This document shows, in pieces, positions 22,800 through 40,463 of a stretch of 55,662 nucleotides of DNA (positions within the stretch are counted from its first letter, which is position 1; every line of letters starts with the position of its first letter). The stretch lies in the NCBI RefSeq assembly GCF_017315705.1, contig NZ_JAFLRF010000042.1, forward strand, positions 1 to 55,662, in the 5' to 3' direction. Under the pieces are notes generated by a model that had not been told where the DNA came from, did no database searches, and worked only from the letters and a program-made list of their open reading frames with translations. The translations under genes and the position numbers were made by a program. This stretch comes from Trinickia mobilis. Its GTDB lineage: Bacteria; Pseudomonadota; Gammaproteobacteria; Burkholderiales; Burkholderiaceae.

Positions 22800-22975
22800 T
22801 CAATAAAAGCGGCTCAGGCGCTGGGATGTCGGCGTTGGGCAAGCGCGTGTCGGGTTTTGAACGATTGCGGCCCGGCGTTGCGGACTACGCTCGAACGGGT
22901 CGCGGCGGCGAACAGCGCGGCGCACCGCGGCAGCTTGAGCATCCGCTTCGGCCTCGGGTCCGCCCCGGGCCGCGC
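22800..22975. other. Junction between betI promoter and the accessory island
   Basis: No gene is supported. It holds the left copy of a 30-base sequence shared with fdhA (22928-22957), immediately before the stop of the LprI-like gene. No choline transporter gene is found divergent to betI, where one is often present. Confidence 0.5.
22928..22957 (+). repeat. Left copy of a 30-base direct repeat derived from fdhA
   Basis: Identical over 30 bases to 29637-29666 inside the fdhA remnant, in the same orientation. It encodes the fdhA peptide GSLSIRFGL. Sequence on both sides differs from fdhA. Confidence 0.85.
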
Positions 22976-23389
22976 TCAATTACATTTCTTCGCGCGAATA
23001 GCCTTTGTCATGCGCTTCGTCTCGGCCGTAGCGCATATGGCAATAGCGGCGGGCAGCATGGAGCCGCCATGCCATTCGCGGTCAGCTGATTTCTTGCAAC
23101 TGGAGTCGCGGTTTTTTTTCCACGCCGTGATTTTCTTCTTTAATGTGACTCCACAATCCGGTGACGCAGCGGATTTTTGGTCTACGATTCGCTGCAATTC
23201 CTGCTCGGCCACGATTTGATCTCGCCATGCGCAGAAATTCATGCTGGTCTGATCGGCGTCGCAGTTCGAAAGCAAGGCACCTACCTCGCTTGCAGGCAGT
23301 CCACTTCGCGCGGCCAATTCGTCCACCGGATTGGGGGCGGCAAGTGCCAACCGGGACACGGCTGCGATCATCACGAATGCGCGTTTCAT
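22976..23389 (-). CDS. LprI-type lysozyme inhibitor-like protein
   Basis: 137-residue protein starting MKRAFVMIAAVSRLALAA, a probable secretion signal, followed by a cysteine-rich domain. The stretch from NFCAWRDQIVAEQELQRI through WKKNRDSSCKKSADREWHGGSMLPAAIAICATAETKRM matches the LprI / DUF1311 pattern (AxxELN-W-RDxxC-GGS-C-R). LprI proteins inhibit lysozymes. The frame is open upstream into a lysozyme-like fragment (23390-23566). No strong ribosome-binding site is seen before the MKRAF start, so it may be expressed as the chimera or not at all. Confidence 0.6.
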   Translation of the reverse strand: MKRAFVMIAAVSRLALAAPNPVDELAARSGLPASEVGALLSNCDADQTSMNFCAWRDQIVAEQELQRIVDQKSAASPDCGVTLKKKITAWKKNRDSSCKKSADREWHGGSMLPAAIAICATAETKRMTKAIRAKKCN

Positions 23390-23566
23390 TGCAGGTGTAA
23401 CGGGCCGCCGAAGCTCATCTTCCGTGCAGGGGCCATGATGTGCAAGCGTGCCAACGCCGTGTGTGCAGTTGTCTGCGATATCGTTGTAGTAGTGCAATAC
23501 GGCGCGCTCGCGGATGCGCAAGGCAGTCAATCCTACATGGCTCATTTGCTTTGATTCATTTGGCAA
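23390..23566 (-). pseudogene. N-terminal fragment of a GH24-type lysozyme fused in frame to the LprI-like gene
   Basis: About 59 residues. VGLTALRIRERAVLHYYNDIADNCTHGVGTLAH resembles the start of phage-type GH24 lysozymes, including the Glu of the RERAV stretch and the GVGTLAH turn. The rest of the enzyme is missing: the fragment ends at CTEDELRRPVTP and runs straight into the inhibitor-like gene. This looks like an internal deletion of an effector gene next to its immunity gene. Confidence 0.55.
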
Positions 23567-23766
23567 GGATTTTCTAGCACAACGGAAGTACGCGACTTTA
23601 TCATTCGTTATGCGAAATCAGAAATGTGATGTGTATTCGCTAGACTTGGTGCCTGTCCCGTTGCAATGGCCGGAAGCGACCCATCTGCGACATTCGAACT
23701 ACTGAACTCGTCGCCCGGAAGCTGACCTTCAGGACGCCGCCGCGGCGTGTGTGGTTGGCAGCTAAT

Positions 23767-23792
23767 GGTTTCGAATCCCTGAAGCGCCACCA
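23767..23792 (+). other. tRNA/tmRNA 3'-end-like scar (candidate att remnant)
   Basis: Reads GGTTTCGAATCCC followed by TGAAGCGCCACCA: a T-arm-like GGTT(T)CGAATCCC and an encoded CCA end at the right spacing, but no matching 5' half. The preceding bases do not pair to form the T stem. Next comes a small hairpin (AAACC-cgaat-GGTTT). It is consistent with the end left by an element that integrated into a tRNA or tmRNA gene elsewhere. Confidence 0.4.
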
Positions 23793-23812
23793 AAACCCGA
23801 ATGGTTTATGAG

Positions 23813-24031
23813 TTAGCTACCTACATGTTGCTGCATCTGTCCGCAGCCGGCACCCGCCCAAATGAAGGACGCCTGTCCATGTCCTTTCGCCACAGGCCCC
23901 TTCCGAAGGCGCATGTAGACCGATTGGGTAGCCGCGCTCGGAGTGCCGGCGGCGCCGATAATTTCCTCCCTAGAAGGGTACTCGTCAAGCAACACCTTGC
24001 GGCGCATTCCAAGGGCGAGTAAGATGGGCAT
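23813..24031 (-). CDS. Small ORF, possibly a degraded HTH protein
   Basis: 72 codons, divergent from the WYL regulator. The stretch MRRKVLLDEYPSREEI is reminiscent of the start of small DNA-binding proteins found beside integrases; the remainder is not recognisable and could be decayed. No clear ribosome-binding site. Low confidence that it is expressed. Confidence 0.25.
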   Translation of the reverse strand: MPILLALGMRRKVLLDEYPSREEIIGAAGTPSAATQSVYMRLRKGPVAKGHGQASFIWAGAGCGQMQQHVGS

Positions 24032-24035
24032 ACAA

Positions 24036-24051
24036 ACTAGATCAATCTAGT
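24036..24051. promoter_or_regulatory. Palindrome upstream of the WYL regulator (candidate operator)
   Basis: ACTAGAT-CA-ATCTAGT, a perfect 7-base inverted repeat with a 2-base spacer, 18 bases before the regulator start. WYL regulators of defence systems (CapW, BrxR) bind inverted repeats in their own promoters, so autoregulation is likely. Confidence 0.6.
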
Positions 24052-24069
24052 AACGCTACCCATTAAGAC

Positions 24070-24969
24070 ATGTCCGAACACTTCAATGCACCGTCCGCAC
24101 GTTGGGGCCCCGAGCGTCGCCTTGAGTTCATTGACTTCCGCCTGCGATGGGAAGGCAGGATCAATCGCTCTGAACTCGTCGCGTTCTTTGGCATCTCAAT
24201 TCAGCAGGCGTCAGCCGATTTGGCCAACTATGCGCGCTTGGCACCTAACAACATTCACTATGACAAACAGGCCAAGACATTCCGCGCCGCCAGCAACTTT
24301 GCTTCCGTTTTCGAAGGAAACGATGCCGAGCTGTACCTGAGTCAGCTGAGTGACCTGACAGCCGGAGTTGCTCCCCAATCGGCATGTTTCATTGGTTGGC
24401 AACCACCATGCGACATAGTGCGATACCCGTCCAGGCCGGTGTCAGATCTCAATCTCCTGCGCCTCTTGTGGGCGATGCGCGATGAGGAGGAGATTGAAGT
24501 GACCTACCAGTCAATGCGTCAGCCAGACCCCTCAGTTCGATGGATCGCGCCTCACGCGTTGGCATCCGATGGCCTGCGGTGGCACGTGCGTGCGTGGTGT
24601 CATGCGAACGCCGATTTCCGTGATTTCGTTCTCTCGCGGGTCATGCAAGTGTCGGGCTCACGTCCCCGAAGCGTCGACCCTAGGGACGACATTGCTTGGC
24701 AATCGCATGTTGATGTCGTCGTGAAAGCCAGGACTGGGCTTTCAAGCGGCCAAAGGGCAGCGATCGAAACTGACTTCGGAATGACAAACGGTCGGCTTGC
24801 GATCCACTGCCGCAGAGCCTTAGCGTTCTACGTCGTTCGTCAGTTGCACCTCGAACGCCTAGAACCTATCCCTCTTACCGAGCAGCCTCTTGAACTCGAG
24901 AACCGGGATGAACTATCAGATGTGCTCGCAAAAGCGAGAAAGCTGCCCGACGTGCAAATTTCCAACTAA
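24070..24969 (+). CDS. WYL-domain transcriptional regulator (CapW/BrxR-like)
   Basis: 299 residues. The N-terminal winged helix lies at about 15-75 (LEFIDFRLRWEGRINRSELVAFFGISIQQASADL). The WYL-type domain at about 135-210 includes IEVTYQSM and WIAPHALASDGLRWHVRAWCHANADFRDFVLSRV. A C-terminal WCX-like extension follows. This architecture is that of defence-island regulators that repress until a nucleic-acid-type ligand appears. It is the first gene of the operon, 20 bases before the ubiquitin-like gene. Its GC is lower than that of the metabolic genes around it, supporting transfer. Confidence 0.85.
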   Translation: MSEHFNAPSARWGPERRLEFIDFRLRWEGRINRSELVAFFGISIQQASADLANYARLAPNNIHYDKQAKTFRAASNFASVFEGNDAELYLSQLSDLTAGVAPQSACFIGWQPPCDIVRYPSRPVSDLNLLRLLWAMRDEEEIEVTYQSMRQPDPSVRWIAPHALASDGLRWHVRAWCHANADFRDFVLSRVMQVSGSRPRSVDPRDDIAWQSHVDVVVKARTGLSSGQRAAIETDFGMTNGRLAIHCRRALAFYVVRQLHLERLEPIPLTEQPLELENRDELSDVLAKARKLPDVQISN

Positions 24970-24989
24970 CTACTGTGAAGGAATCTGAA

Positions 24990-25244
24990 ATGACCGAACT
25001 TGCGCATGCGGCGACCTACCACTTCTTTGTTGACGGCAAGCCATACGCTACCGAGAAGACGTATCTGTCGGGCCTCGAAATCAAGAACATCGCAGGTGTG
25101 GCTGGCAACTATCAGTTGTACCTTGAAGAGCAAGGTGATACACCGGACCGTGCAATCTCTGATGGTGAAACGGTGCCGATGGACCACAAGGAAAAGCATT
25201 TCTTTGCCGTGCCGCCGGCCACCTTCGGGAAGCAGCAAGCATGA
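24990..25244 (+). CDS. Ubiquitin-like protein (multiubiquitin/PF14452-type, single domain)
   Basis: 84 residues. YHFFVDGKPYATEKTYLSGLEIKNIAGVAGNYQLYLEE, then HKEKHFFAVPPATFG, follows the pattern of the prokaryotic multiubiquitin domain: a beta-grasp fold beginning with two strands and ending in F-VPP-TFG. There is one domain only. The chain ends G80-KQQA, so a four-residue tail after Gly may be trimmed by the JAB peptidase encoded two genes later. The start at 24990 is chosen for AAGGAATCTGAA ahead; an in-frame GTG at 24975 is less likely. The stop overlaps the E2 gene (ATGA). Confidence 0.85.
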   Translation: MTELAHAATYHFFVDGKPYATEKTYLSGLEIKNIAGVAGNYQLYLEEQGDTPDRAISDGETVPMDHKEKHFFAVPPATFGKQQA

Positions 25245-25645
25245 TCGAACAGCAACTCGAAGAACTACGTGAGCGGCTTCGTCAGAAGAGTCCAAACACC
25301 GTCGTTGAGAGCCAGCAGATGCCCAACGGGGGGGCGCTCATCAAAGTGAGCAACGTCGACTTGAATGGAGGATGGAATCGACCCACCGCAGAGGTGCTAT
25401 TCGTGGCGCCTCCTGGCTACCCGGGCGCCGCACCGGATTGCTTCTGGGTTGAACCGGGTGGCCTGAGGCTTGCCAACGGAGCAACGCCACAGGCTTCCAA
25501 CGATGGAAACCCTATCCCCGGCGACCCAATGGCAGGACGAAGCACAACTTGGTTCTCGTGGCACGTCCAAGGGTGGAATCCCAACGTCAACACGCTTGCA
25601 GGGTTCTATCAGCTGATCCTAGATCGACTACGGCCGGCGCGATGA
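25241..25645 (+). CDS. E2-like ubiquitin-conjugating protein (prokaryotic E2 family E type)
   Basis: 134 residues with a UBC-like pattern: TAEVLFVAPPGYPGAAPDCFWVEPGGLRL, then FSWHVQGWNPNVNTLAGFYQLILDRL. The only cysteine in the protein is Cys67 (PDCFW), the obvious candidate for the thioester with the ubiquitin-like protein. His108 in the SWH motif is a possible supporting residue. It overlaps the Ubl gene by ATGA and the E1 gene by ATGA. In related bacterial systems such an E2 receives the Ubl from the E1 and conjugates it to a target. Confidence 0.85.
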   Translation: MIEQQLEELRERLRQKSPNTVVESQQMPNGGALIKVSNVDLNGGWNRPTAEVLFVAPPGYPGAAPDCFWVEPGGLRLANGATPQASNDGNPIPGDPMAGRSTTWFSWHVQGWNPNVNTLAGFYQLILDRLRPAR

Positions 25646-26979
25646 GGCACGAACTCTGCATCGCTGCTGGCGATTTCGAGTCGCTCCAAGCCAATCTGCT
25701 GCCCTGCGTCGAAGAACGCTGTGCGGTTCTCTTCGCATCGAAAAGCAGGCGAAGCGACGGGCAAGTGCGCTTTCTTGTTCGCGAAATCAGCTATCCCGAG
25801 GCTACTGACTACACGAGCCAAGGTACGCACGACGCAGAATTGACGCCGGGATTTGTCGCCCGGGTGGCGAAGCAAGCGGTGAGGTCCGGTCTTTCGTTGG
25901 TCTTCGTACACACCCACCCAGGGGCGAAAGCGCCAGTCTTCTCGCCTGTTGATAACCGCGGTGAGCGTGTGTTGTCCGCATTCTTGACGATTCGCTGCGG
26001 TCCAAAACGGCACGCTGCGCTGGTCATGAGCGCTGGCGGCCTGCGTGCCAGAATCCTTGGCACCTCCGACGAACTGCGGGTGGTCATGGTCGGTCCGAAG
26101 CGCAGTATCGCCTTCGATCCTGGCTTCTCAGTAGATGCTCCTTCGACTATGTTTGACCGTCAAGTGCGAGCGTTCGGAGCCCTTGGGCAACAGCGCTTGG
26201 AAAGCATTCGAGTCGCAATCGTCGGCCTGGGTGGAACAGGATCCATCGCTGCACAGCAACTCGTGCACCTCGGCGTCCGTCACTTCATTTTGGTTGATCC
26301 CGACACCATCGAGGAGGTGAACTTAAACCGCGTAGTCGGAGCGACCGTGGCTGACATCGGCTCGGCCAAGGTTTCAGTCGCGGCCAAGTACATACGGGGC
26401 TTCAGCAGCGCAACAACGATATTCGAGCATGTCGGCGACGTTGTGCACGACTCCGTTGCCCGCAAGCTCATCGACGCAGACCTAATCTTGTCGTGCACCG
26501 ACTCACATGGCAGTCGTGCGGTTCTGCAGCAGATCGCGTACCAGCATCTCATCCCATGCATCGACATGGGGTCGACGATCACCCAATCGGAAGGTCGCAT
26601 AACCGGAATTTTTGGACGCATCCAAATGCTGGCGCCTGGCCTACCGTGTTTGTGGTGCAGTTCGCTTCTTGACGCGGAGCAAGTTCGGCGGGACATGATG
26701 AATGAGCCCGAACGTCGACTCGATCCATACATCCCTGGCTCTCGCGAACCGGCGCCGTCGGTTGTCTCGCTCAACGGAACAGTCGTTTCTCTGGCGGTTT
26801 CGATGCTCTTAGGTGCGGTCGCCGGAGCGCCTTTCGAGTCGACGCACTTGATCTATAACGGCTGCGCATCAAGCCTCAGGGCAGTCCGCGGCCAAGCTAA
26901 GAAAAACTGCTTCATCTGCTCCCGTGCGGGAGCGATCGCATGGGGCAGCGATCGACAACTCTTCACGAGGCTTGATTGA
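25642..26979 (+). CDS. JAB deubiquitinase-E1 (ThiF-like) fusion
   Basis: 445 residues, two enzymes in one chain. Residues about 1-140: JAB/JAMM metalloprotease with H90-x-H92, S101 and D104 (HTHPG ... FSPVD), and Glu candidates at 48 or 53. Residues about 170-430: E1/ThiF adenylating domain with FDRQVRAFG, the nucleotide loop GLGGTG at 195-200, D219 and D221, N227/R230 (NLNR), K243 and D287. Two CxxC pairs (C336/C339 and C423/C426) should bind zinc. The catalytic cysteine is not certain. The JAB part would process the Ubl precursor or remove conjugates; the E1 part would activate the Ubl. In Bil systems these are separate proteins. Confidence 0.88.
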   Translation: MRHELCIAAGDFESLQANLLPCVEERCAVLFASKSRRSDGQVRFLVREISYPEATDYTSQGTHDAELTPGFVARVAKQAVRSGLSLVFVHTHPGAKAPVFSPVDNRGERVLSAFLTIRCGPKRHAALVMSAGGLRARILGTSDELRVVMVGPKRSIAFDPGFSVDAPSTMFDRQVRAFGALGQQRLESIRVAIVGLGGTGSIAAQQLVHLGVRHFILVDPDTIEEVNLNRVVGATVADIGSAKVSVAAKYIRGFSSATTIFEHVGDVVHDSVARKLIDADLILSCTDSHGSRAVLQQIAYQHLIPCIDMGSTITQSEGRITGIFGRIQMLAPGLPCLWCSSLLDAEQVRRDMMNEPERRLDPYIPGSREPAPSVVSLNGTVVSLAVSMLLGAVAGAPFESTHLIYNGCASSLRAVRGQAKKNCFICSRAGAIAWGSDRQLFTRLD

Positions 26980-26980
26980 A

Positions 26981-28615
26981 ATGCCGATTCACGAATTCTG
27001 CGCGGGCCCTATCAGAAGACGAGTTGCATTCGTTGGTGACGTACCTCCGGAAGCTTTAAAGGCGTTCGGTCGACGAGGCTTCGATTGCTTTGTGCTTAAC
27101 AGCGATCCTATTGGTCGCGCACTGGAGGCCAGTACAGCGGATTGCGTGGTGCTCACACAAATCGCAGGCGAAACGGAACGATTTCAAGTGCGAGAGCAGT
27201 TAGAGCAATTGGCCGACTTGCTCAATCATGACTGCCGATTGTATGTCAGATACACAGAGGCCATCGGCGACAAGGACATCGTGCTCAGAGCCCTGAACAG
27301 TCAGCAGTTGCCACCTTCTGGCTTTGTGGAGACGGATGGGAAGTTCTTCTATGGCGACTGGTTCGAAGGCGTCAATCATCCGGTATTTGCCCCGTTTGTT
27401 CATGTGCTGCCGGACAAAACAGCGTGGGACAACCTAGCGAATCTCGTTGTTCAAAATCCGGCAGGTAAGGCACCCAATCAAGATTTAAAAATTGAAATCT
27501 ACGATGTCAATCACAACGCCATTCACCTGGAGTCGGAAGCAGAGCTTCTCGTCCGGCGAGCATTCTGGAACTGCTCCTCAGTTCGGCTGAATGCCAAGGC
27601 GAACGGACTTTCTGGCGTAGGCGCCTACGACGCATTTGCGCACATGAGCAAGAACGTGGTCGGGGGTGACTGGCCATATCGGTTTTTTGTGAAACTCGGC
27701 AGTCGAGTCAAGGTTAGCCGGGAGTACCACAAGTATCGAACGACCGCGCTTGAGAACGTGCCATATCACTTAGGACCGCGGTTACGGATGGACCGGTGTG
27801 TGCTCGGCCGCTCCCAAGGCCTCATCGTGAGCGACTATGTTTCAGGCGCAGAGGCGTTGCGGGACTGCGCTCGCGAGGGGCGAGGGGTTCCGGCGATTGG
27901 CAACCTCTTCAATTTGACCTTACTTGCGTGGCGAAGAGCCGCACTAGACGCCGAAGTGCCGCTCGCTGAGTACCTAGGCAACCATTTCCCCAAAGCAATC
28001 CCACCGCATCGCGCTGCGCTGATAGAAGCATACGGTGGAACTCACCCACCGGAATATCTGAGGCAGGTCTTTGAATCGCAGATAAGTCAGCCAGTACTAG
28101 TCGGCGTCGTGCATGGTGATCTACATGCAACGAACGTGCTCGTACGCTCGAACGACGCGGTCATTATCGATCTTGAACGCATTCAACTCGGCATGCCGCT
28201 GCTCTATGACGCTGCATCCCTCGAAGGCGGTCTCTTCATTGATGGGTTCATTGGCGACCGACGGACCGGCGCCGCACTGTTGGCTTCGCTGGTCTCGATG
28301 TATTCAGCTAGTGCCTTCTATGGTGACGATCACTTTTGTCTTCCGCAGGACGGCTCCGCTTGGTTCGTTGACAGCGTACGCCAGATTCGAATGCAGGCCC
28401 GGCAAATGGAGCGTTCGCCACGGCAGTATGGATTGACTCTCGCAGCTGTGTTGCTTAAGAAGGCATGCAATCCCGAAGACTTCCGCTCCTCAACCGAGGA
28501 GATGGATGTGAACCCGGCTCCCTTGACACGTGAGGCCGTTCGAGCTCTCGCATACGTGCTCGGAGAAAAAATCCTAATGGCGCTGTCGGCGCCGGAAACC
28601 ACGCCCAGCCTATGA
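26981..28615 (+). CDS. Kinase/phosphotransferase-fold protein of the Ubl operon
   Basis: 544 residues, starting one base after the E1 stop. The C-terminal half has an aminoglycoside-phosphotransferase/protein-kinase-like pattern: candidate ATP-binding Lys238 (YRFFVKLG), catalytic loop HGDLHATN at 378-385 with D380 and N385, and metal-binding D397 in VIIDLERI. From memory this resembles the TCAD9-type domain described in bacterial ternary-complex systems, but I cannot verify that. The N-terminal part (to about 170) looks alpha/beta (RRRVAFVGDVPPEALKAFG) and unrelated to the kinase fold. No known Bil/Ubl role is assigned. It could phosphorylate the Ubl, the target or a small molecule. Confidence 0.7.
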   Translation: MPIHEFCAGPIRRRVAFVGDVPPEALKAFGRRGFDCFVLNSDPIGRALEASTADCVVLTQIAGETERFQVREQLEQLADLLNHDCRLYVRYTEAIGDKDIVLRALNSQQLPPSGFVETDGKFFYGDWFEGVNHPVFAPFVHVLPDKTAWDNLANLVVQNPAGKAPNQDLKIEIYDVNHNAIHLESEAELLVRRAFWNCSSVRLNAKANGLSGVGAYDAFAHMSKNVVGGDWPYRFFVKLGSRVKVSREYHKYRTTALENVPYHLGPRLRMDRCVLGRSQGLIVSDYVSGAEALRDCAREGRGVPAIGNLFNLTLLAWRRAALDAEVPLAEYLGNHFPKAIPPHRAALIEAYGGTHPPEYLRQVFESQISQPVLVGVVHGDLHATNVLVRSNDAVIIDLERIQLGMPLLYDAASLEGGLFIDGFIGDRRTGAALLASLVSMYSASAFYGDDHFCLPQDGSAWFVDSVRQIRMQARQMERSPRQYGLTLAAVLLKKACNPEDFRSSTEEMDVNPAPLTREAVRALAYVLGEKILMALSAPETTPSL

Positions 28616-29139
28616 AGACGCTTCGAATTGCACTCAAAGCTGAACTCACGTCGCGCGCAGGTGCAGACGAATTCTTGAAAGCACCTGGCGATGCCGTCTT
28701 GATTTGCCGTGAGACACCGAGGTGGCTCTTGCTGCAATGCCCTTGCGGCTGTGGCGAACAGATTCCGGTGAACGTTGACAAGCGCGCCGGCAAGGCTTGG
28801 CGCTTCTACTGCGACGCCGACAAGAGCGTTACGTTGTTCCCATCGGTATGGCGTGACACCGGCTGTCAGAGCCACTTCATAATTTGGAGAGACCGCATCT
28901 TGATGTTCGGTCTCGATCGCGTCTCAGGCACCGCTCCTGTAGAAAGCATCGACATCGGATCACTCGCTAAGAGGGTTTTGGACGTTTGGCCGCGCGCTGG
29001 TCTCGTTCCATACGTCGATGTCGCGGATACGCTCAACGAAATTCCGTGGGATGTTCAGGAGGCGTGTCGTGCATTGGTCAAGTCTGGTCGGCTTATCGAA
29101 GGTCTTGGCAAACAGCGGGGAATGTTCCGTCGTTCCTAG
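28612..29139 (+). CDS. DUF6527-like cysteine-rich protein, last gene of the Ubl operon
   Basis: 175 residues, overlapping the kinase-fold gene by ATGA. The N-terminal half carries CPCGC (C43, C45, C47), C67 and C85 in SVWRDTGCQSHFIIWRDRI. That pattern, including the SVW-GC-SHF block, is that of the DUF6527 family associated with bacterial Ubl genes and probably binds a metal. The C-terminal 60 residues (VPYVDVADTLNEIPWDVQEACRALVKSGRLIEG) look like a winged helix, not a standard part of the short family members. The function is unknown; it could be a target adaptor or E3-like factor. Confidence 0.75.
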   Translation: MKTLRIALKAELTSRAGADEFLKAPGDAVLICRETPRWLLLQCPCGCGEQIPVNVDKRAGKAWRFYCDADKSVTLFPSVWRDTGCQSHFIIWRDRILMFGLDRVSGTAPVESIDIGSLAKRVLDVWPRAGLVPYVDVADTLNEIPWDVQEACRALVKSGRLIEGLGKQRGMFRRS

Positions 29140-29427
29140 CAACCCAGCAGTTGGCCTGATGCCGCCTGCGCGCTGGCTCAGGCCGACTTGCCAAACGGCT
29201 ACGCGTGTCGAAGTTGGAAGTGAAAGCTGGAAGCACTCGCTTCCCCGCCCGGCCCGAGTACCACTCTACGAGCTACCGGAAAGCCGACCTTGGCGAAGGA
29301 CAGCTTATGGCCGCCAGTTGTCTCCTCGTCCGTGGTCCGTGTCTGGTAAGAAATCGCAGCATTTTCCGCACCTTTGTGTTGACCAGCGTCGAAATGGATT
29401 CGAGCCCCTCTCGATGATGAACCTCTC
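29140..29427. other. Right arm of the island up to the fdhA break
   Basis: No gene is supported. It contains an inverted repeat GGCCTGA (29153-29159) / TCAGGCC (29178-29184) just after the last island gene, possibly a terminator without a T-run. The rest shows no recognisable protein in any frame. The fdhA homology begins at about 29428. Confidence 0.5.
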
Positions 29428-29886
29428 TTGAAGCAGATTCTCGGCAGGCCCGAGGTGGATTACGCCATGGATTGCGTCGGCTTTGAAGCGCACGGCCACG
29501 GCAGCGGACACACGGAAGAAGCACCCGCGACGGTGCTCAATTCGCTGATGGAAATCACGCGGGCAGCGGGTTCGATCGGCATTCCCGGCCTATACGTGAC
29601 CGACGACCCGGGCGCCGTGGATGCCGCCGGGCGCAACGGCAGCTTGAGCATCCGCTTCGGCCTCGGCTGGGCGAAGTCGCATTCGTTCCATACCGGGCAG
29701 ACACCGGTGATGAAATACAACCGCAATCTGATGCAGGCGATTCTGTGGGACCGGCTGCCGATTGCGAAGATCGTCAACGTGCCGGTGATTTCGCTCGATC
29801 AAGCGCCGGAAGGCTATCGCAAGTTCGATGGCGGCGCGCCGCGGAAGTTTGTGATCGATCCGCATGGGTTGTTGAAGGCGGCTTGA
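29428..29886 (+). pseudogene. fdhA: 5'-truncated glutathione-independent formaldehyde dehydrogenase
   Basis: About 152 C-terminal residues of a zinc-dependent alcohol-dehydrogenase-family enzyme normally near 400 residues. GRPEVDYAMDCVGFEAHGHG, TRAAGSIGIPGLYVTDDPGAVD, GSLSIRFGLGWAKSHSFHTGQTPVMKYN and the normal C terminus (FVIDPHGLL) are intact. The catalytic domain with its zinc ligands is absent, and no N-terminal half is present anywhere in the window. FdhA oxidises formaldehyde released by methyl oxidation, so its loss matters to the surrounding pathway. The break coincides with the island edge. Confidence 0.85.
29637..29666 (+). repeat. Right copy of the 30-base direct repeat (within fdhA)
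   Basis: Identical to 22928-22957. Here it is part of the fdhA reading frame (GSLSIRFGLG). The two copies bracket the whole island. Confidence 0.85.
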
Positions 29887-29983
29887 GCGTGCGGATCGCT
29901 ATCGTATCGATGTGTTGTCGCGATAGGCGTAGATCTGGACTTGGTCCCCGCCGCCGATCCATCGCGGCATTCGGCGACGGCCG

Positions 29984-31048
29984 TCACTGCGCGAGCCGCG
30001 GTGCCATATACGCGCCGTAGGCCGGTCCGACGCCGCCCGCTGCCGTGGTCAGCGTGTAGCCGCCGACGAAATGTCCTTGAATGTATTTCCCACTGCCGCC
30101 GACCGATGCGTCGATGTGAAACGCGGCAAAAGCCACTATCGGAACATACGTCTTGCTGTCGATCTGTGCGGCGACAGGCATGACGACCGTCACATTAGTC
30201 GGCACCGAGCCATAAATGGCGGTTTTTGCACCGGGTTCGATCCAGATGCTGTCGCCTATGCTCAGGGGTGACGGATTGCCGTTCACAATCAGGTTGTCGA
30301 TCGTCGGCACATTGTTCGCGTTTTCGAGAAACGCGGTCCATTGACCGGCATCACACGAGCCGCCATTCATCTGGCCGTTGGTGATACGGAACTCGTAAGG
30401 CTGGCCCGTCGTCGGATCGATCACGGGTTGATTGGTCGTCGCGTCCCAGTATTGATTGAAGACGCACTGAGCCAGGACCACGGGAAACAAGCCGCCCGCA
30501 TCGACCGTGCTCGGCGCCGCGGCCACCGCCACCGCAGTGGCACTGCCCGGCACGCTCAACAGGTTCAGCAGGCTCCCTAGATACAACGCGATCGGGCCTC
30601 CGTTCTGGTTCGTCGCGCGCGTCACGGTGACTTGCACAGCGGGAGCATCGTAGATGCCGGGTGCAATCGTCGTTGCTTCCATACCGGCCGGACTGCCCGT
30701 TAGATTCCAGTAGCCGGCCTGAACCGCACCCGTCGTCAGCGTTTGTCCGTCGGAGCGGTTCAACGTTACGGCGTTGGCCGCTGCCGCCTGGGCCTGGGTC
30801 CAGTTCGAGCCGTTGCCGCCGGCAGTCACCAACTGGGAGGCGCCAGCCAGTGCCGCGCCGTCCGCGTCATTTTGCAGTTCGTTGATTACCACATCCACAC
30901 GGGCGAGGTTGATCGCGAATGCACCGAAGCCCAGCAACGCTATGAGGAACAGCAGAAAGAATAGTGCAACGGAGCCGCGTTGCCGGGACGCGGCGCGAGG
31001 AGCCCGATGTCGCGAAGGGAATGTCCGATAGCGCATCGCCGGCCTCAT
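29984..31048 (-). CDS. tadG: TadG-type pilus protein with Tad domain
   Basis: 354 residues. The N-terminal hydrophobic segment RGSVALFFLLFLIALLGFGAFAINLARV, followed by INELQNDADGAALAGASQLV, is the Tad (TadG-like) domain; the rest is a secreted or periplasmic beta-rich region without an evident von Willebrand factor A motif. The start at 31048 overlaps the tadE stop (ATGA); a second ATG at 31036 is possible. It is the last gene of the Tad operon. Confidence 0.8.
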   Translation of the reverse strand: MRPAMRYRTFPSRHRAPRAASRQRGSVALFFLLFLIALLGFGAFAINLARVDVVINELQNDADGAALAGASQLVTAGGNGSNWTQAQAAAANAVTLNRSDGQTLTTGAVQAGYWNLTGSPAGMEATTIAPGIYDAPAVQVTVTRATNQNGGPIALYLGSLLNLLSVPGSATAVAVAAAPSTVDAGGLFPVVLAQCVFNQYWDATTNQPVIDPTTGQPYEFRITNGQMNGGSCDAGQWTAFLENANNVPTIDNLIVNGNPSPLSIGDSIWIEPGAKTAIYGSVPTNVTVVMPVAAQIDSKTYVPIVAFAAFHIDASVGGSGKYIQGHFVGGYTLTTAAGGVGPAYGAYMAPRLAQ

Positions 31049-31518
31049 TCGTAATTCATTACGGTGACGGCCGTCACCGTAATCGGGCCGGTCAGCGAGC
31101 TGAATATAGAACCCAGCACGAGGCCTTGATACTGATAGATTACGGTGACCTTCAGCGGATTGCCGGGCGACGTACCCACAGGTTGCTTCACGGTTACGGT
31201 CGGTGTCGTCGCGGTGCCTCCCGTGATAAGACTGTTCTGCAAGTAGTTGAGGGCGACGTTGCTGATCTCGGTGGGCGTCAACTGCGGAACCCGCACCACC
31301 ACGCCGGCGCGCGCCGCTTCGCGACTGGCGTTGGTGATGAGCGCCTTGTCGCTTAGCAGGAGGCTCACGTCGATGATGCCGAACAACACAATCAAAAGGA
31401 ACGGGAGCACGAGAACGAACTCGAGCGCGATCGCTCCACGGCTGGCGCGGGGCAGTCCCGCACTGCGCGCCTGCGCACCTCGCGGCGATCGATTCAACAT
31501 GAACGCGCGCCGATTCAT
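31045..31518 (-). CDS. tadE: TadE-family minor pseudopilin
   Basis: 157 residues with RGAIALEFVLVLPFLLIVLFGIIDVSLLL, the prepilin-like TadE motif (G-A-x-A-L-E-F, Glu at +5) processed by the TadV peptidase in this system. It overlaps tadG by ATGA, and its ATG overlaps the tadD stop. Confidence 0.85.
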   Translation of the reverse strand: MNRRAFMLNRSPRGAQARSAGLPRASRGAIALEFVLVLPFLLIVLFGIIDVSLLLSDKALITNASREAARAGVVVRVPQLTPTEISNVALNYLQNSLITGGTATTPTVTVKQPVGTSPGNPLKVTVIYQYQGLVLGSIFSSLTGPITVTAVTVMNYE

Positions 31519-32378
31519 TGCGGCGACGCTTTGGCGCCCGGCGAAACTGCCGGCGTGGCCGTGCCGTCCGCGCGGCCGCCTGCGGCTCGATACTCGTCGA
31601 GCCTGCCGCGCAGGCTCTGATAGAAGCGCAAGTTGTCGTCGACTGACGAAGGAGGCAAGTCGACCAGCAGAATCCTCTTCGCCGCATCCGCATTGCCAAG
31701 CAACCCGTAGGCGAGCGCCAGGTCCTGGCGCGCTTGCGATGGCGCATCGGGCAGGCCGGCAACGTCGAGCAGGACGTTCGCACCTTCACGCGGCTTGTCT
31801 TGAAGGATCAGCGACAGGCCGAGGTTCACGCGCAAGCCTTCTACCTCGGGATGCACGGCAAGCGCCTTGCGATAAACGTCCTGCGCTTCGCTGTGTCGAT
31901 CCTGCAGGTCGAGCACGGTGCCGAGACCCTCGCTGATCACTGGATTGTCAGGCTGCGCCGCGAGCAGGCCGCGATAGAGCGCCGCTGCATCATCGAGGCG
32001 ACGCTGCCGTAACGCGATGCGCGCGAGACCAAGCTGCGCTGCCGGTCGTGCCGCAAGCTGAAGGGCCGCCAGCTGGTATAGCGCGCGGGCGCGCTCCAGG
32101 TCGCCGGTCTCGTATATCGAGTCGGCGAGACCCAGTTGCGCATCGAGCGAGTTCGGGTTGGACTTGAGCGCTTTCTCGAACAGCGTGGCGGCGAGTTCAA
32201 CGTCGCCCGCCTGCAACACACTGTCTGCGAGCCGTTCGTCGCTCGTGCCATCGGTGCCGTGTTGCAACGATACTGGACGGGGGCTGAAACTTCCGCCGCC
32301 GGCACAGCCGGCCAATAGGGCGCAGGCCAGCGGCAACGTAGTCGCAAGGGACCGCAACAACACTGGAAAATGTTTCAT
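31515..32378 (-). CDS. tadD: TadD-like TPR lipoprotein
   Basis: 287 residues. The signal ends in a lipobox LLAGC (Cys25), followed by tetratricopeptide repeats (for example DSVLQAGDVELAATLFEKALKSNPNSLDAQLGLADSIYETGDLERARALYQ). TadD is an outer-membrane lipoprotein needed for Flp pilus assembly. ATGA overlap with tadC. Confidence 0.88.
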   Translation of the reverse strand: MKHFPVLLRSLATTLPLACALLAGCAGGGSFSPRPVSLQHGTDGTSDERLADSVLQAGDVELAATLFEKALKSNPNSLDAQLGLADSIYETGDLERARALYQLAALQLAARPAAQLGLARIALRQRRLDDAAALYRGLLAAQPDNPVISEGLGTVLDLQDRHSEAQDVYRKALAVHPEVEGLRVNLGLSLILQDKPREGANVLLDVAGLPDAPSQARQDLALAYGLLGNADAAKRILLVDLPPSSVDDNLRFYQSLRGRLDEYRAAGGRADGTATPAVSPGAKASPQ

Positions 32379-33325
32379 TTGAATAGGGTCACCAGGCGAA
32401 TCACCGCCGGTCCGGCTGCTATCAGGCCGACCGTCGGCAGAATGAAAAGCATCATCGGCAACGTCATCTTGACCGACAGTTTCGCGGCCTTTTCTTCGAG
32501 CGCCAGCATTTGCGCGGTCCGCTCGGCTCGAGACAGCATGCGAAGCGATTGCGTGATCGGCGTGCCGTATTGTTGCGACTGAACCAGCGTGGTCACGAGC
32601 GCGCGTACCGACGGCAGGCCGATTCGGGCAGCCAGGCGGCGCAGTGCGACCGCGCTGTCACCGCCGATCTGCAACTCGTCGCCGGTGACAGAGAACTCGT
32701 CGGCGAGCGGCGGACAAATCGTTTTCAATTCGCGCGCAACGCGCTTCACGCCTACTACGAGACTGTTGCCGGCATTGGTGCAAATCACCAGCAGGTCGAG
32801 CGCATCGGGCAGGCATGACGCTATTGCTTTTTGACGACGGCTGACCATGGCGCCGAGCGCCAACTCGGGCAGGATCATCCCGACGATGAACGCCCCGCCC
32901 ATCATCAGTGCGCGAAACACGAAGTAGCCGCCGATTCGAGGCACATGAGGGCCGAGCACGATCGCCGCCAGTGCCGGCAATGCGCCGGCCAGCAGCTTGA
33001 GGCCGATCATCACGGAGATCGCCCGGCGCTCACGAAAGCCCGCGCGGACCAGTTGCTCGGCCAACTTGTTGCGCTGAGCCGCATCGCCCAGCGGAACGCT
33101 TTCGCCAAGCGTCGCGAAACGCCTTATGAGCCGTTGCCACATCTCGGTAGCGTGCTCTTCCGCGCCCGGCAGGTGCTGTGTGTCCGCGCCCATCGCCGCG
33201 TGGTACGCCCGCTGTGCGATGCGGCGGCGCGTTCTGCGCGGCCACATCAGCGCGAACAGCAGGCCGCCGCACAGCACGAGCAGCAGCGCCAGTTCGCGAG
33301 CCGTATCGGTTCCAATGAAATTCAT
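32375..33325 (-). CDS. tadC: Tad inner-membrane protein TadC
   Basis: 316 residues with a type II secretion F domain in the C-terminal part (CLPDALDLLVICTNAGNSLVVGVKRVA, LVTTLVQSQQYGTPITQSLRMLSRAERTAQMLALEEKAAKLSVKMTLPMMLFILPTV) and terminal membrane segments. It pairs with TadB as the platform for the TadA ATPase. ATGA overlap with tadB. Confidence 0.9.
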   Translation of the reverse strand: MNFIGTDTARELALLLVLCGGLLFALMWPRRTRRRIAQRAYHAAMGADTQHLPGAEEHATEMWQRLIRRFATLGESVPLGDAAQRNKLAEQLVRAGFRERRAISVMIGLKLLAGALPALAAIVLGPHVPRIGGYFVFRALMMGGAFIVGMILPELALGAMVSRRQKAIASCLPDALDLLVICTNAGNSLVVGVKRVARELKTICPPLADEFSVTGDELQIGGDSAVALRRLAARIGLPSVRALVTTLVQSQQYGTPITQSLRMLSRAERTAQMLALEEKAAKLSVKMTLPMMLFILPTVGLIAAGPAVIRLVTLFK

Positions 33326-34299
33326 CGCGATGTGTCCAGCTTCGAAATTTTTTGAATCATCGAGAGGCCGGCGACGAGAAGCACTGCCGCCAACGTCAGC
33401 ATCTTGTGGCCGGCGCGCGTATGGAACAGCAGGTCCACATAAGGCCGGTTGATCACATAGAGCAGGCCGGTGATCAAGAACGGCACCGCCGCAATGATCT
33501 TGCTTGCGATGCGGCCTTCTGCGGTCAGCGCGCTGGTTTTCAGTCGAATGTCCCTGCGGGAGCGAATAATGCCCGACAGATTCTCAAGGGTTTCTCCGAG
33601 ATTCCCGCCCGTTTCCCGCTGCAACAGCAGGCATACTGCAAAAAAAGAAAAATCGGCGATCTGCAGTCGTTCGGCGGCCTTGTCGAGCACCTCTTTCAGG
33701 TCCGCGCCAAGTTGCAAGCTGTCGCCCATCGTGCGAAAGGTCGAGCGCACCGGTTCCTCCGCCTCGTGCCCAGCCGTGCTGATTGCCTGCACTACCGGTA
33801 TTCCTGCGCGCACGGCCCGGATGATCAGGTCCAGCGTATCCGGAAACACCGTGAGAAACCGCGTGCGAAAGCGCGCGATCAAAAATCGTTGAGTGATCCT
33901 CATCGCCAGGACCGGCGTGCCTCCGTAGACGAACGGAGCGGACCATCCCGGAAGCGGTGAAAGGCGCACGATGATAAACGCTATCGCCGCGCCGACGATG
34001 CCACTGGCGAATACGAGGCGGATGCCGCCCGCACCGCTCACGGCTCGCAAGCGCCGCACGCGTTGCTGGAACCACGCTTCGATCGCTCCATAGTCCTTTG
34101 GCCGCTCGAAGAGTTCTCCACTTGTGTCCCGCGCCGCGGGTTGCTGACTTGCGACGCGCAACTGCTGAATCTGGCTCAGCCGCGCCCGGATGCGAGGCTT
34201 TGGCCGGCGACGAGCCATCTCGCGCAACGACGACACGATCATTCCGGCCAGTACGATGGCGAAAAACGCACCCGCTGCCACGATGTCCGCTGGAGTCAT
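33322..34299 (-). CDS. tadB: Tad inner-membrane protein TadB
   Basis: 325 residues with an N-terminal membrane segment, two central ones, a T2SS F domain (FPDTLDLIIRAVRAGIPVVQAISTAGHEAEEPVRSTFRTM, LLQRETGGNLGETLENLSGIIRSRRDIRLKTSALTAEGRI) and a C-terminal segment. It overlaps tadA by ATGA. Confidence 0.9.
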   Translation of the reverse strand: MTPADIVAAGAFFAIVLAGMIVSSLREMARRRPKPRIRARLSQIQQLRVASQQPAARDTSGELFERPKDYGAIEAWFQQRVRRLRAVSGAGGIRLVFASGIVGAAIAFIIVRLSPLPGWSAPFVYGGTPVLAMRITQRFLIARFRTRFLTVFPDTLDLIIRAVRAGIPVVQAISTAGHEAEEPVRSTFRTMGDSLQLGADLKEVLDKAAERLQIADFSFFAVCLLLQRETGGNLGETLENLSGIIRSRRDIRLKTSALTAEGRIASKIIAAVPFLITGLLYVINRPYVDLLFHTRAGHKMLTLAAVLLVAGLSMIQKISKLDTSR

Positions 34300-35678
34300 G
34301 TGCGCATCGCCTCCATGAGCGTCGTTTCAAGGCCATAGTAGGCGGCGCGTGCCGCGAACACGGGACGCAACGACGACGACTCGAACGCGCCTTTGACGTC
34401 TTCCTGATAGGCGCTGGCGTCGTAACGGAAGGCGAAAAGATCCTGCGTGATGATCACGTCGCCCTCCATTCCAGCAAGCTCGGTTACGCGCGTGACGCGC
34501 CGCACGCCGTCGCGCATGCGTTCGATTTGCAGAATCAGGTGCACGGCGCTGGCGATCTGCCGTCGGATCGCCGTGAGCGGCAGATTGCCGTTTGCCATCA
34601 TCACCATGCTTTCGAGTCGCGTGATGGCATCGCGCGGCGTGTTGGCGTGTATTGTCGTCATCGACCCGTCGTGGCCCGTGTTCATCGCCTGCAGTACGTC
34701 GAATGCTTCGGGGCCACGCGTTTCACCGAGGATGATGCGGTCCGGCCGCATCCGCAGTGCGTTACGCACCAAGTCGCGCTGGGATACCGCGCCGAGTCCT
34801 TCGCTGTTCTCGGGACGCGTTTCAAGGCTGACCACGTGCGGCTGTTGCAGTTGCAGTTCCGCGGCGTCCTCGATGGTCACGATACGTTCGTGTTCGTCGA
34901 TGTGGTGCGACAGTGCGTTGAGCAAGGTGGTCTTGCCCGAGCCTGTGCCGCCGGAGATGATGATGTTGAGGCGGCAGGCGCTGGCGATCTTGAGCACCCG
35001 CACCATCTCGGGCGAGATATTGGCTTGCTGGGCCATGCGCGCAAGCGTGATATTGCGCTTGGAAAACTTCCGGATCGAAATCGACGCGCCTCGCAGCGCA
35101 ATCGGCGGCAACACCACGTTGACGCGGCTACCGTCGGCAAGTCGCGCGTCGACCATCGGGCTGCTCTCGTCGACGCGTCGGCCGACCGCAGCGGCGATAC
35201 GCTGTGCCACGTTGACCACATGTGCGTTGTCGCGGAATTTCAGCGGCGTGAGTTCGAGTCGGCCGTGCCGCTCCGCGTAGACCTGATCCGGGCCGTTGAC
35301 CAGTATGTCCGTCACGGTCTCGTCAGCCAGAAGCGGTTCGATCGGCCCGACACCGAACATGTCATTGAGTATTTCGCTGACGATCAGTGCCTGCTCCGCA
35401 GCAGTGACGTTCAGTTGCTCTCGCGCCGCTACGTCGACGGCGATCTCCTCAATGCCGGCGCGCACCTGCTCGCGTGTCTTCATCAGCGCCGCAGACATGT
35501 TCATCGAGGCAAACACCACGGCTCGGATCTTCTTGAAGTTGTCCGAGCGAATCAGCGCCTCGTGACCGTCCGTCGGCATGCGCGGATGCGCGGGCGGAGC
35601 GGCCGCCGGTTGCTCGGCGCGCACGTGTGCGTCGGCGGGCAACGAATCCGTCGGCATGTGCTTTTTTGCGCCAAACAT
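34296..35678 (-). CDS. tadA: Tad secretion ATPase TadA (CpaF)
   Basis: 460-residue type II/IV secretion ATPase powering Flp pilus assembly. Walker A GGTGSGKTT lies near residues 240-248, the Asp box with DRIILGETRGPEAFDVLQAMNTGHDGS, and TTIHANTPRDAITRLE (His box). The start at 35678 shares its A with the tadZ stop (TAATG). A longer start is open but lies inside tadZ. Confidence 0.92.
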   Translation of the reverse strand: MFGAKKHMPTDSLPADAHVRAEQPAAAPPAHPRMPTDGHEALIRSDNFKKIRAVVFASMNMSAALMKTREQVRAGIEEIAVDVAAREQLNVTAAEQALIVSEILNDMFGVGPIEPLLADETVTDILVNGPDQVYAERHGRLELTPLKFRDNAHVVNVAQRIAAAVGRRVDESSPMVDARLADGSRVNVVLPPIALRGASISIRKFSKRNITLARMAQQANISPEMVRVLKIASACRLNIIISGGTGSGKTTLLNALSHHIDEHERIVTIEDAAELQLQQPHVVSLETRPENSEGLGAVSQRDLVRNALRMRPDRIILGETRGPEAFDVLQAMNTGHDGSMTTIHANTPRDAITRLESMVMMANGNLPLTAIRRQIASAVHLILQIERMRDGVRRVTRVTELAGMEGDVIITQDLFAFRYDASAYQEDVKGAFESSSLRPVFAARAAYYGLETTLMEAMRT

Positions 35679-36898
35679 TACGGCGTTCTCCTCGGTGTCA
35701 TCAGACGGGCATGCCACGGAAGAGGCGCCGCCGACGATTCGCGGCCGGTCAGGCCGTTGGCGATCCGTTCGATTGCTGCGGCGAACCCGGGCTGCTTTTT
35801 GCGGCCGGCGACCGGCTCGCCCAGATTTTCGGCCCTCGCGAGGGACTTCGGATCGTACGGCAGCTCATGCAGCACCGAGCGTCCAAGCGCACGCTGGAAG
35901 TCCTTGGGTTGAACGCGGTCCGCGACCGGCTCAAGCGGATTGTTCAGCAGCACCGAAACGACCGGTTCTCCGGTGCGATCCTCGGCGAACCGGAGCAGCC
36001 GCACGCATTCACGCGCCGCATGGACCGAAGGATCGGCAACGATGCAGACAACCTGGGAAGCATCGAGCGCTTCTGTGACGCTGTGTCCACCCCGGCCTGG
36101 CAGGTCGAGCAAGACATAGTGAAAGCGCCGTTTGAGCGTATTGATCAGCTCGCTGATGGCGCCGGGGCGCAGCGCGAACTCAGCGTCGTAGGGGAGTTCC
36201 GACGACAGAACGAAGAGCCGGTCACCGGCCGGAACCAGGGCCCCGACGATCGACTGCGGGTCGATGGCTCGCGTGTCCTCGAGCAGGCCGGTCAGGCCGT
36301 TGTTGGTGCGCAGCCCAAGCATCGAATTGCCCGCGCCGCCGTGCAGGTCCAGGTCGACATAGGCGACTTGTCTCTGCGTCTCGTCGGCCAGATGGCGCGC
36401 GAGCGATACAGCAATCGTCGTGACACCGATTCCCCCGCGGGCACCGACGAGGCTGATCACTTTTCCGGTACGCGCCTGTGCCGAAGGGTCCCGGGCCGAT
36501 AGCGCGCGCTGTACGAGTTCGACCGTCAGCGGCTTGACGAGATAGTCCTGTATGCCGATCTCGAGCAGGCTGCGAAACAGGCCCACATCGTTGCGATCGC
36601 CGATCACCACAACCGCCACCGATGGAGCGCACACTTCGGCCAGGCGTTCCAGGTCCGATAGCGGCATGGTGGAGCCGGATACGTCCACGAGCAGTTGGCG
36701 GGGCGGCCTCTCGAGCACCTGCAAGAGCCTGATGGCGTCGTCGATGCTGCCGATCTGCGCGCGTGCGTGCGATATGGCCTGATCGACGATCAGGCTCTTC
36801 ACCGCTTCGACGCTAGCTGCATCGGAGAGGACCGCGAGCAAGTCCACCGCGTGTGTCGCGGCCGAACTCTTGGGACGAAGAAATTCCTGGGCGTTCAT
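35678..36898 (-). CDS. tadZ: Pilus localisation ATPase TadZ/CpaE
   Basis: 406 residues: an atypical receiver-like N-terminal domain (to about 135; VVVIGDRNDVGLFRSLLEIGIQDYLVKPL) and a MinD/ParA-type ATPase domain (KVISLVGARGGIGVTTIAVSLARHLAD, deviant Walker A; VDLDLHGG; LLDLPGRGG). The start at 36898 (MNAQEFLRP) is preferred over in-frame upstream starts, which would run into the preceding gene. It places the Tad machine at the cell pole in characterised relatives. Confidence 0.88.
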   Translation of the reverse strand: MNAQEFLRPKSSAATHAVDLLAVLSDAASVEAVKSLIVDQAISHARAQIGSIDDAIRLLQVLERPPRQLLVDVSGSTMPLSDLERLAEVCAPSVAVVVIGDRNDVGLFRSLLEIGIQDYLVKPLTVELVQRALSARDPSAQARTGKVISLVGARGGIGVTTIAVSLARHLADETQRQVAYVDLDLHGGAGNSMLGLRTNNGLTGLLEDTRAIDPQSIVGALVPAGDRLFVLSSELPYDAEFALRPGAISELINTLKRRFHYVLLDLPGRGGHSVTEALDASQVVCIVADPSVHAARECVRLLRFAEDRTGEPVVSVLLNNPLEPVADRVQPKDFQRALGRSVLHELPYDPKSLARAENLGEPVAGRKKQPGFAAAIERIANGLTGRESSAAPLPWHARLMTPRRTP

Positions 36899-36914
36899 GA
36901 TGGTCGGTGGCCCG

Positions 36915-37289
36915 TTACTGACCCGGTCGAGTCGTGGTCGAAGTGACGTTGGGCTCCTTGATGCGATTTTCGTCGAAGCGGCGAACCGCGCTTGCCGCCA
37001 TCGCGGCGTCCGCGCCGGCATAGGGCAGCGGTTCGGTCAGATCAGCCGGCCGTGCGAGCATCACCGCGAGATTCGTGTAAGTCGCGCAGCCGAACGGCAT
37101 GCCTGGGCGCCCGGAGCCCGCGTCGACCAAGGTTGACGGCTGGTCCAGCGCGGCGCAGTCGGGCGAAATCGCCCGGCGACCGTCGAACCCGATCACCGAC
37201 GCGTCGGGCATGCCGAACGGCGGATGGGCGGACATGCATGCGGCGAGCGCCAGCGGCAGAAGTCCGATACCAATCAATCGCGGGCGCAT
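36915..37289 (-). CDS. cpaD: CpaD-like pilus assembly lipoprotein (short)
   Basis: 124 residues. Lipobox-like LALAAC (Cys18) and the CpaD signature FGCATYTNLAVMLARPADL. It is much shorter than the usual 200 or more residues, lacking most of the N-terminal half, yet it has an excellent ribosome-binding site (CGGAGGAAC). It is probably a compact variant and not a broken gene. In Tad systems this protein stabilises the secretin. Confidence 0.75.
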   Translation of the reverse strand: MRPRLIGIGLLPLALAACMSAHPPFGMPDASVIGFDGRRAISPDCAALDQPSTLVDAGSGRPGMPFGCATYTNLAVMLARPADLTEPLPYAGADAAMAASAVRRFDENRIKEPNVTSTTTRPGQ

Positions 37290-37306
37290 CTGTCGTTCCT
37301 CCGAGA

Positions 37307-38758: not shown

Positions 38759-38850
38759 GGATCCTTCCTGTCGGAGTACCGGATAGACGACATGCCACAC
38801 GGCACCCTGCTGTCGAACACGGGCTGGCCACTGAAGGCCGCCACGAAGCA

Positions 38851-39855: not shown

Positions 39856-39874
39856 TGCCGAAACCTGGGGGCCA

Positions 39875-40384: not shown

Positions 40385-40463
40385 AAGAGCCCGCGGGAGC
40401 AGAGCCCGGCGGTCTTCGACGCCAGGCCAGCCCCGCGCTCACAGCGCCGGTTAGAGACGTGTA

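Follow-up and report, generated by a model that had tools for sequence, protein, structure and literature searches.

What Bub-type ubiquitin-like conjugation operons respond to, what they target and what output they produce is nowhere stated in the literature covered here (Ye et al. 2026 and Gong et al. 2025 lie outside it), and the locus described below raises the question of whether a kinase encoded inside such an operon is part of the answer. It lies in a stretch of 55,662 nucleotides from Trinickia mobilis (Burkholderiaceae; contig NZ_JAFLRF010000042.1, positions 1–55,662), called the window, where six genes follow one another on the forward strand. The first is capW (24070–24969), a complete open reading frame (ORF) for a WYL-domain repressor of 299 amino acids (PF13280, E-value 1.7e-12). 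It is followed by genes for a ubiquitin-like protein (Ubl) of 84 amino acids with a single Multi_ubiq domain (24990–25244, from an ATG; PF14452, 4.6e-7), an E2-like protein of 134 amino acids resembling BubB (25241–25645; Prok-E2_E, 1.8e-9), with S106/H108 in the E2 active-site column, and a BubCD-like JAB-E1 fusion of 445 amino acids (25642–26979), assigned by alignment with PDB entry 9ea4 and its conserved residues (ThiF 8.4e-39; Prok-JAB 7.3e-4, under its cut-off). The last two genes encode an APH-fold kinase of 544 amino acids (26981–28615; TCAD9 4.4e-11 and APH 8.9e-7, the query in the Pfam and PADLOC searches being the 543 residues after the first Met) and a DUF6527 protein of 175 amino acids (28612–29139; PF20137, 8.7e-18, with alignments and lengths). 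An earlier reading of these letters without database searches (the sequence-only reading) had described a packed, co-directional operon of six genes, and this stands: all six ORFs are intact, and the genes are separated by 1–20 bases or overlap by 4. The overlaps are ATGA at the Ubl/E2, E2/E1 and kinase/DUF6527 junctions, the E1/kinase spacing is 1 base, and capW and the Ubl gene are 20 bases apart, or 5 if an in-frame GTG at 24975 is the Ubl start. By its sequence, the core is an ordinary member of the known Bub family; as far as the literature covered goes, what is new is that one Bub clade has the kinase as a fifth, conserved component. We consider it probable that this is a Bub subtype repressed by CapW, in which Ubl conjugation feeds a kinase dedicated to it; the substrate of the kinase and the direction of control are both inferred.

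Forty-eight loci from seven phyla encode the kinase along with Ubl, E2 and JAB-E1; near-copies are among these loci, and some of the phyla rest on metagenome bins. Because the four proteins recur jointly, the gene set is not a product of chance. The loci comprise 40 of the 80 genome_contigs loci (plus L025, a copy of L023), the plasmid loci L010–L015, L004 and the window. A DUF6527 gene is present in 44 of the 48, and the remaining four end at a contig or locus edge. In loci with the standard gene order, the kinase gene lies no more than 20 bases from the E1 gene in 28 of 31 cases. The 48 loci were mostly found via E1, and the question of whether the kinase also occurs elsewhere rests on scans of plasmids and genome samples. 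Among plasmids, an E1 match adjoined the kinase in 12 of 12 records, seven of which are near-identical Bradyrhizobium plasmids; six of the records were inspected gene by gene, and all strong plasmid matches (above 120 bits) belong to Bub operons. The genome samples overlap (398 genomes sampled by phylum, 399 by order and 369 by class, with the first two to four candidates per genome scored), and the only kinase matches above 120 bits outside the window were L101, L102 and L121, all three with Bub genes alongside; in L102 the match extends over about 350 of 496 positions. Seven weaker matches (28–44 bits over 48–100 positions around the catalytic loop) lacked a Bub gene in the surrounding 1.5 kb or so, and we take them to be other kinases. 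The kinase and DUF6527 genes do accompany Ubl, E2 and E1 in other genomes, so that the check by which the sequence-only reading would have been refuted comes out in its favour. A phage-borne origin was considered and set aside: in scans of viral_contigs with the kinase, the kinase alignment and E1, the sole match was to the kinase, weak and partial and with no Bub genes, a miss that in itself proves little.

The kinase is also inherited together with the E1. In a tree of 81 of the 96 E1 sequences, one clade of 51 rows (support 97) contains 47 with the kinase and four without, and the kinase label changes state 4 times on the tree, where shuffled labels average 26.3 changes. L001, L005, L007, L008, L012, L016, L064, L069, L074, L075, L079, L080, L081, L088 and L097 were kept out of the tree as fragments, broken frames or copies; L012 has the kinase, and L016, L064 and L081 (the last from a short contig, its E1 broken) resemble clade relatives with no kinase seen. 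L025 (the copy of L023), L002, L003 and L019 had been dropped at an earlier stage. Of the E1s, 52 reach at least 460 bits, with the kinase present for 47 and absent for five, and L012, with its broken E1, also has it; the remaining 43 E1s lack a kinase, several of those loci being short or at a contig edge. Across 32 loci, pairwise distances correlate at r = 0.91 between kinase and E1, 0.89 between E1 and E2 and 0.85 between kinase and DUF6527, and the largest permuted correlation was 0.22 (999 permutations). The four label changes would fit one gain and three losses, as expected if the kinase were a passenger gene trapped in one operon lineage, but we regard this as highly improbable: the gene has been kept across seven phyla with all its catalytic residues and in a mostly constant operon place, and it co-diverges with E1 as tightly as E2 does. 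A variation in layout was seen in L041, L043, L055, L059, L061, L062 and L101, where the kinase follows DUF6527 and a second Ubl gene stands directly before it; in the six of these loci for which its C-terminus was recorded, this second Ubl finishes with FG or close to it (HG in L043).

The kinase domain spans approximately residues 180–538 and follows an N-terminal alpha/beta region (14–174). Pfam, alignment and fold search agree on a kinase fold with ATP-binding and catalytic residues present; the catalytic residues are conserved, with D380, which the sequence-only reading had named, kept in 45 of 45 rows, and on this sequence evidence the kinase is apparently active. PF19974 (TCAD9) was matched by all 37 clade kinases scanned. 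The N-terminal region had no fold match among the matches listed, which one domain filled, and against viral proteins the fold search returned generic kinases only. Among solved structures, the nearest in fold are kinases of choline, aminoglycosides, methylthioribose and fructosamine. These folds favour an explanation in which the kinase acts on a small molecule (a phage or host nucleotide-like signal, a sugar or an amine) as a metabolic effector or detoxifier controlled by Ubl, and Kaur 2020 (PMC7159879, in the parts covered) suggests that the active APH kinases in conflict systems have low-molecular-weight substrates. We consider this explanation rather unlikely, and it overlaps with those, discussed below, in which the kinase is an output arm or a regulator of conjugation.

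The conjugation core surrounding the kinase has intact sites of its own. The Ubl C-terminus reads ...ATFG-KQQA, and in relatives an FG lies near the C-terminus with a tail of 0–4 residues; every one of the 48 kinase loci has FG in its first Ubl, and in 19 of them it is already terminal. The JAB-E1 fusion aligns with Citrobacter BubCD (9ea4) across residues 14–390 (E-value 4.1e-31) and contains the JAMM residues E25/H90/H92/S101/D104, the adenylation residues K243/D287 and zinc-type cysteines C336/C339/C423/C426. JAMM is intact in 47 of 47 rows reaching the site; H90 and H92, which the sequence-only reading had singled out along with K243, are likewise kept in 47 of 47 rows reaching them, and K243 in 48 of 48. 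That JAMM is intact even though 19 of the 48 Ubls already end in FG points to a deconjugation role of JAB. No conserved cysteine was found in the E1 stretch examined. The DUF6527 protein has a zinc-type motif, C43-x3-C47-x37-C85-x2-H88, and an extra C-terminal part of approximately 80–90 amino acids; it measures about 160–200 amino acids in the kinase subtype versus mostly 78–124 in other Bub loci. Tandem DUF6527 pairs follow the kinase in L029, L045 and L121.

The E2 requires a correction. C67, previously proposed as its active site, is invariant within the clade yet lies outside the catalytic position, and Met is found there in 22 of 36 outgroup rows. Alignment places Ser106 in the catalytic-cysteine column, and in the E2 model C67 sits in strand 66–71 and S106 in strand 103–108, ahead of the conserved W112; on both grounds C67 was rejected as the nucleophile. 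A Ser occupies this column in most aligned family members, which allows the mechanism of such E2s to be addressed at a named residue. Bub chemistry is described as diverged from thioester chemistry. Distant Bub E2s in L075, L078, L088, L089, L094, L096 and L099 (7 of 40 kinase-less rows) have a Cys in the column and might serve as material for studying the Cys/Ser change.

Compared with known systems, the operon is a Ubl-conjugation operon of the Bil/Bub sort, as the earlier reading had it, but of Bub rather than Bil type. Like Bil (BilABCD), it encodes Ubl, E2, JAB and E1 in one operon. In Bil, JAB and E1 are separate genes and the E2 keeps its catalytic cysteine, whereas here there is a single 445-amino-acid JAB-E1 fusion and a Ser in the E2 column, and Bil membership was rejected on these two features; the PADLOC BilD match (1e-4) also compares poorly with that to BubCD (4e-31). 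The best PADLOC matches of the E1 were type II CBASS E1-E2 models (1.3e-16, E1 part only), but unlike type II CBASS (Cap2/Cap3), no CD-NTase is present among the six operon proteins. With Bub operons (solved for Citrobacter BubCD/BubB as 9ea4, 9ea5, 9ea8, 9eae and 9eav) it shares a Multi_ubiq Ubl, an E2 without the catalytic cysteine, a JAB fused ahead of E1, a zinc-type DUF6527 protein and a CapW regulator. It differs in the kinase gene between E1 and DUF6527, the longer DUF6527, the E2 residue C67, and the single-domain Ubl encoded separately from E2, other Bub loci being able to have repeated or fused Ubls.

The combination of Ubl, E2, JAB-E1 and a DUF6527-type metal-binding protein corresponds to what Iyer et al. 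2006 (PMC1779556; this and the other papers cited are covered in part) call the "fifth operon type" and list as 6e in their Table 1, and whose metal-binding motif, C-x3-C-x(35-38)-H-x2-C, has the Cys and His of the last pair in the reverse order to that found here. Of the two extra partners suggested by the sequence-only reading, the kinase is indeed extra, but DUF6527 belongs to this described type. Nor is the proposal of an undescribed defence system supported, given that the core is already described and that, according to the authors of PMC13373217, protection against phage is yet to be demonstrated for Bub operons. A different kinase is linked to Bub operons in the same source: CapK, which controls them by phosphorylating a repressor, CapK and CapS being found at 59 of 544 operons. 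CapK is, however, an HTH-STAS-GHKL protein encoded upstream of the operon, whereas the present kinase has an APH fold and is encoded inside it. PMC10910872 links TCAD9 to the vWA-MoxR-VMAP conflict systems, and these ternary systems share the PF19974 kinase with our operon, although Pfam found no vWA, MoxR or VMAP among its six proteins. Since vWA-MoxR-type conflict systems also associate with Ubl-conjugation systems (Kaur 2020, PMC7159879), a TCAD9-type protein beside a Ubl operon has precedent, and the two links together fit an effector role of the kinase. The present kinase is not named as part of a Bub operon in the covered parts of PMC13373217, PMC1779556, PMC9122588, PMC7159879, PMC10910872, PMC12687455 and PMC11354881, Ye et al. 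2026 and Gong et al. 2025 again being outside coverage.

The regulator belongs to the CapW/BrxR class of WYL repressors. Its PDB matches include 7tb5 (named a WYL domain-containing protein, E-value 2.7e-68), Stenotrophomonas maltophilia CapW 7tb6 (7.7e-67), CapW 9c5g (3.9e-53) and BrxR 7t8k (5.9e-40). According to PMC9122588, CapW represses as a dimer bound to a palindrome at its own promoter, and CapW or CapH with CapP occurs at 219 of 544 Bub operons (PMC13373217). The present protein resembles the CapW/BrxR repressors in length, domain and homology, and in having a palindrome just upstream; it differs in that capW is the first gene of the operon and co-directional with it. This palindrome, ACTAGATCAATCTAGT, is an exact inverted repeat (ACTAGAT and ATCTAGT around CA, 24036–24051) ending 18 bases 5' of capW and is the likely CapW operator. 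CTAGATNNATCTAG has a single exact occurrence in the window. Within 150 bases upstream of the assumed capW start, in loci with capW before Ubl in the same direction, TAGATNNATCTA was found exactly in 6 of 11 loci and at no more than one mismatch in 7 of 11, where shuffling of the bases gave expectations of 0.00 and 0.07, these 11 loci being related, and hence not independent, and some capW starts being guessed. Other regulators occur in relatives (HTH and IrrE peptidase in L014, XRE in L015), and therefore the regulator is exchangeable.

Putting these elements together, a CapW dimer at 24036–24051 would hold the operon off until DNA damage or a phage-like stress released it. JAB would then trim the Ubl tail after FG, and also dismantle conjugates, and E1 would adenylate the FG end of Ubl; transfer to targets would proceed via the S106/H108 site of E2, or straight from the adenylate, with no cysteine thioester, and the zinc-type DUF6527 protein would be a cofactor of the core. 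The kinase would be the output arm of the subtype, switched when it or a partner is conjugated to Ubl, and would phosphorylate a cell or phage component, stopping growth. Sequence and model establish only the groundwork of this scheme: the gene set, the kinship with Bub and CapW, the conserved palindrome, the intact JAMM and adenylation sites, the Ser replacing the E2 catalytic cysteine, the lack of a conserved cysteine in the E1 stretch examined, and the co-inheritance of an apparently active kinase with E1. The role of the kinase as a dedicated output arm under Ubl control is the least certain step, and we propose it tentatively, with somewhat less than even confidence. We give similarly guarded credence to the broader idea that Ubl conjugation switches the APH/TCAD9 kinase, or that the kinase acts on Ubl-tagged proteins, in a cascade that has evolved as a unit across at least seven phyla.

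Several observations weigh against this CapW-controlled, kinase-feeding subtype. The E1s of L016, L047, L049, L051 and L054 score with the clade and have no kinase, which indicates that the core can run kinase-free. In the class sample, DUF6527 was found in 12 of 369 genomes and such a kinase in 2 of those 12; with ten lacking it, only a minority of Bub operons seem to be of the kinase subtype. The nearest solved folds of the kinase, as stated, are small-molecule kinases. In the clade alignment, no Ser, Thr, Tyr or His of the Ubl reached 95% conservation, and no charged or polar residue conserved to this degree in Ubl, E2, E1 or DUF6527 was lost in all four kinase-less rows, so that a link between the kinase and the Ubl machinery has no residue-level support; phosphorylation of Ubl at a fixed site is accordingly not supported. 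A scan of 23600–29500 for sigma-70-type promoters gave no match at threshold, and the literature search gave no conjugation, kinase activity or phage protection for this subtype. The same residues bear on a further explanation, that the kinase regulates the conjugation machinery by phosphorylating E1, E2, DUF6527, CapW or Ubl and thereby governs the timing of conjugation, the output being the Ubl conjugate itself. The kinase gene, flanked by those for E1 and DUF6527, diverges in step with these two, a second Ubl stands directly ahead of it in the sub-branch described above, and the CapK/CapS kinase controls such operons through their repressor (PMC13373217), albeit with another fold and from upstream. 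Against these points stand the lack of a conserved Ser, Thr, Tyr or His on Ubl and of any tested residue vanishing together with the kinase (among only four kinase-less rows), and we judge regulation of conjugation to be distinctly unlikely.

If the kinase is instead the output arm, ubiquitin-like tagging and phosphorylation would be joined in one bacterial transcript, and the sub-branch with the second Ubl would represent a Ubl-kinase pair in its own right. Crosstalk between ubiquitin tagging and phosphorylation is familiar from eukaryotes. By retaining a mid-operon kinase that looks active, the clade also offers a concrete handle on Bub output.

As to the genomic setting, a segment of about 6.5 kb carrying the operon (22928–29431) replaces the first part of a gene: homology to a same-genus genome (G013, locus L118), in which a 398-amino-acid ORF is intact at this place, stops at 22927 and resumes at 29432. 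The 3' remnant of the broken gene (29432–29886, forward strand; 89% identity to G013) has no Pfam match, and a 42-base copy of 29625–29666, from the same gene, lies at the left junction (22916–22957; repeat search, 88%). We take the broken gene to be fdhA-like and its left neighbours to be bet genes, although no family match names them. The low-GC setting noted earlier is confirmed, with a GC content of 0.55–0.58 across the operon (1-kb steps, 24 to 29 kb) against mostly 0.60–0.69 elsewhere in the window, the exceptions being 23–24 kb (0.56) and 40–41 kb (0.58). Remnants of mobile DNA had likewise been reported, which is right only in part: what lies beside the gene set is the broken gene and the 42-base copy, in a window that was not searched whole for transposases or integrases. 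A tRNA-like 3' end at 23767–23792 was rejected as an attachment site, since the genome has a single occurrence of the string and neither ARAGORN nor Rfam gave a match. In the flanks of relatives (180 ORFs chosen and 150 scanned, near-copy loci and the window left out), the matches listed include 6 integrase, 3 RES, 3 Cap15, 2 HipA_C and 1 AbiEii, with no control set. By regulator and setting, a defence role is plausible. The alternative is that the operon serves the host's response to DNA damage or stress, not defence, and is carried about by mobile DNA: CapW-class regulators respond to DNA damage, a global stress role was left open by the authors (PMC13373217), and phage protection by Bub is yet to be demonstrated. 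However, the patchy spread over seven phyla and plasmids, the inserted segment in the window and the flank matches (integrase, RES, Cap15, HipA_C, AbiEii) speak against it, and we hold it to be on the unlikely side.

Other features of these loci were recorded. Within the inserted segment, beside the operon, is an ORF of 196 amino acids with an LprI domain (22976–23566, reverse strand). Some 11 kb after the fdhA-like gene (29890–41068) are absent in G013 and G020, and the part from 29890 to approximately 32400 presumably encodes TadE/TadG and TPR proteins. A CBASS locus (L010:12910–15539) lies downstream of the kinase-Bub operon on a Bradyrhizobium plasmid, at a distance of about 4 kb. The T. 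mobilis genome also has a second Ubl locus, without a kinase, on another contig (L120:4974–8913; G000 contig C45), which encodes a 181-amino-acid protein with one Multi_ubiq match, a DUF6791-ThiF protein and a DUF6527 protein, together with divergent HTH and IrrE-peptidase genes.

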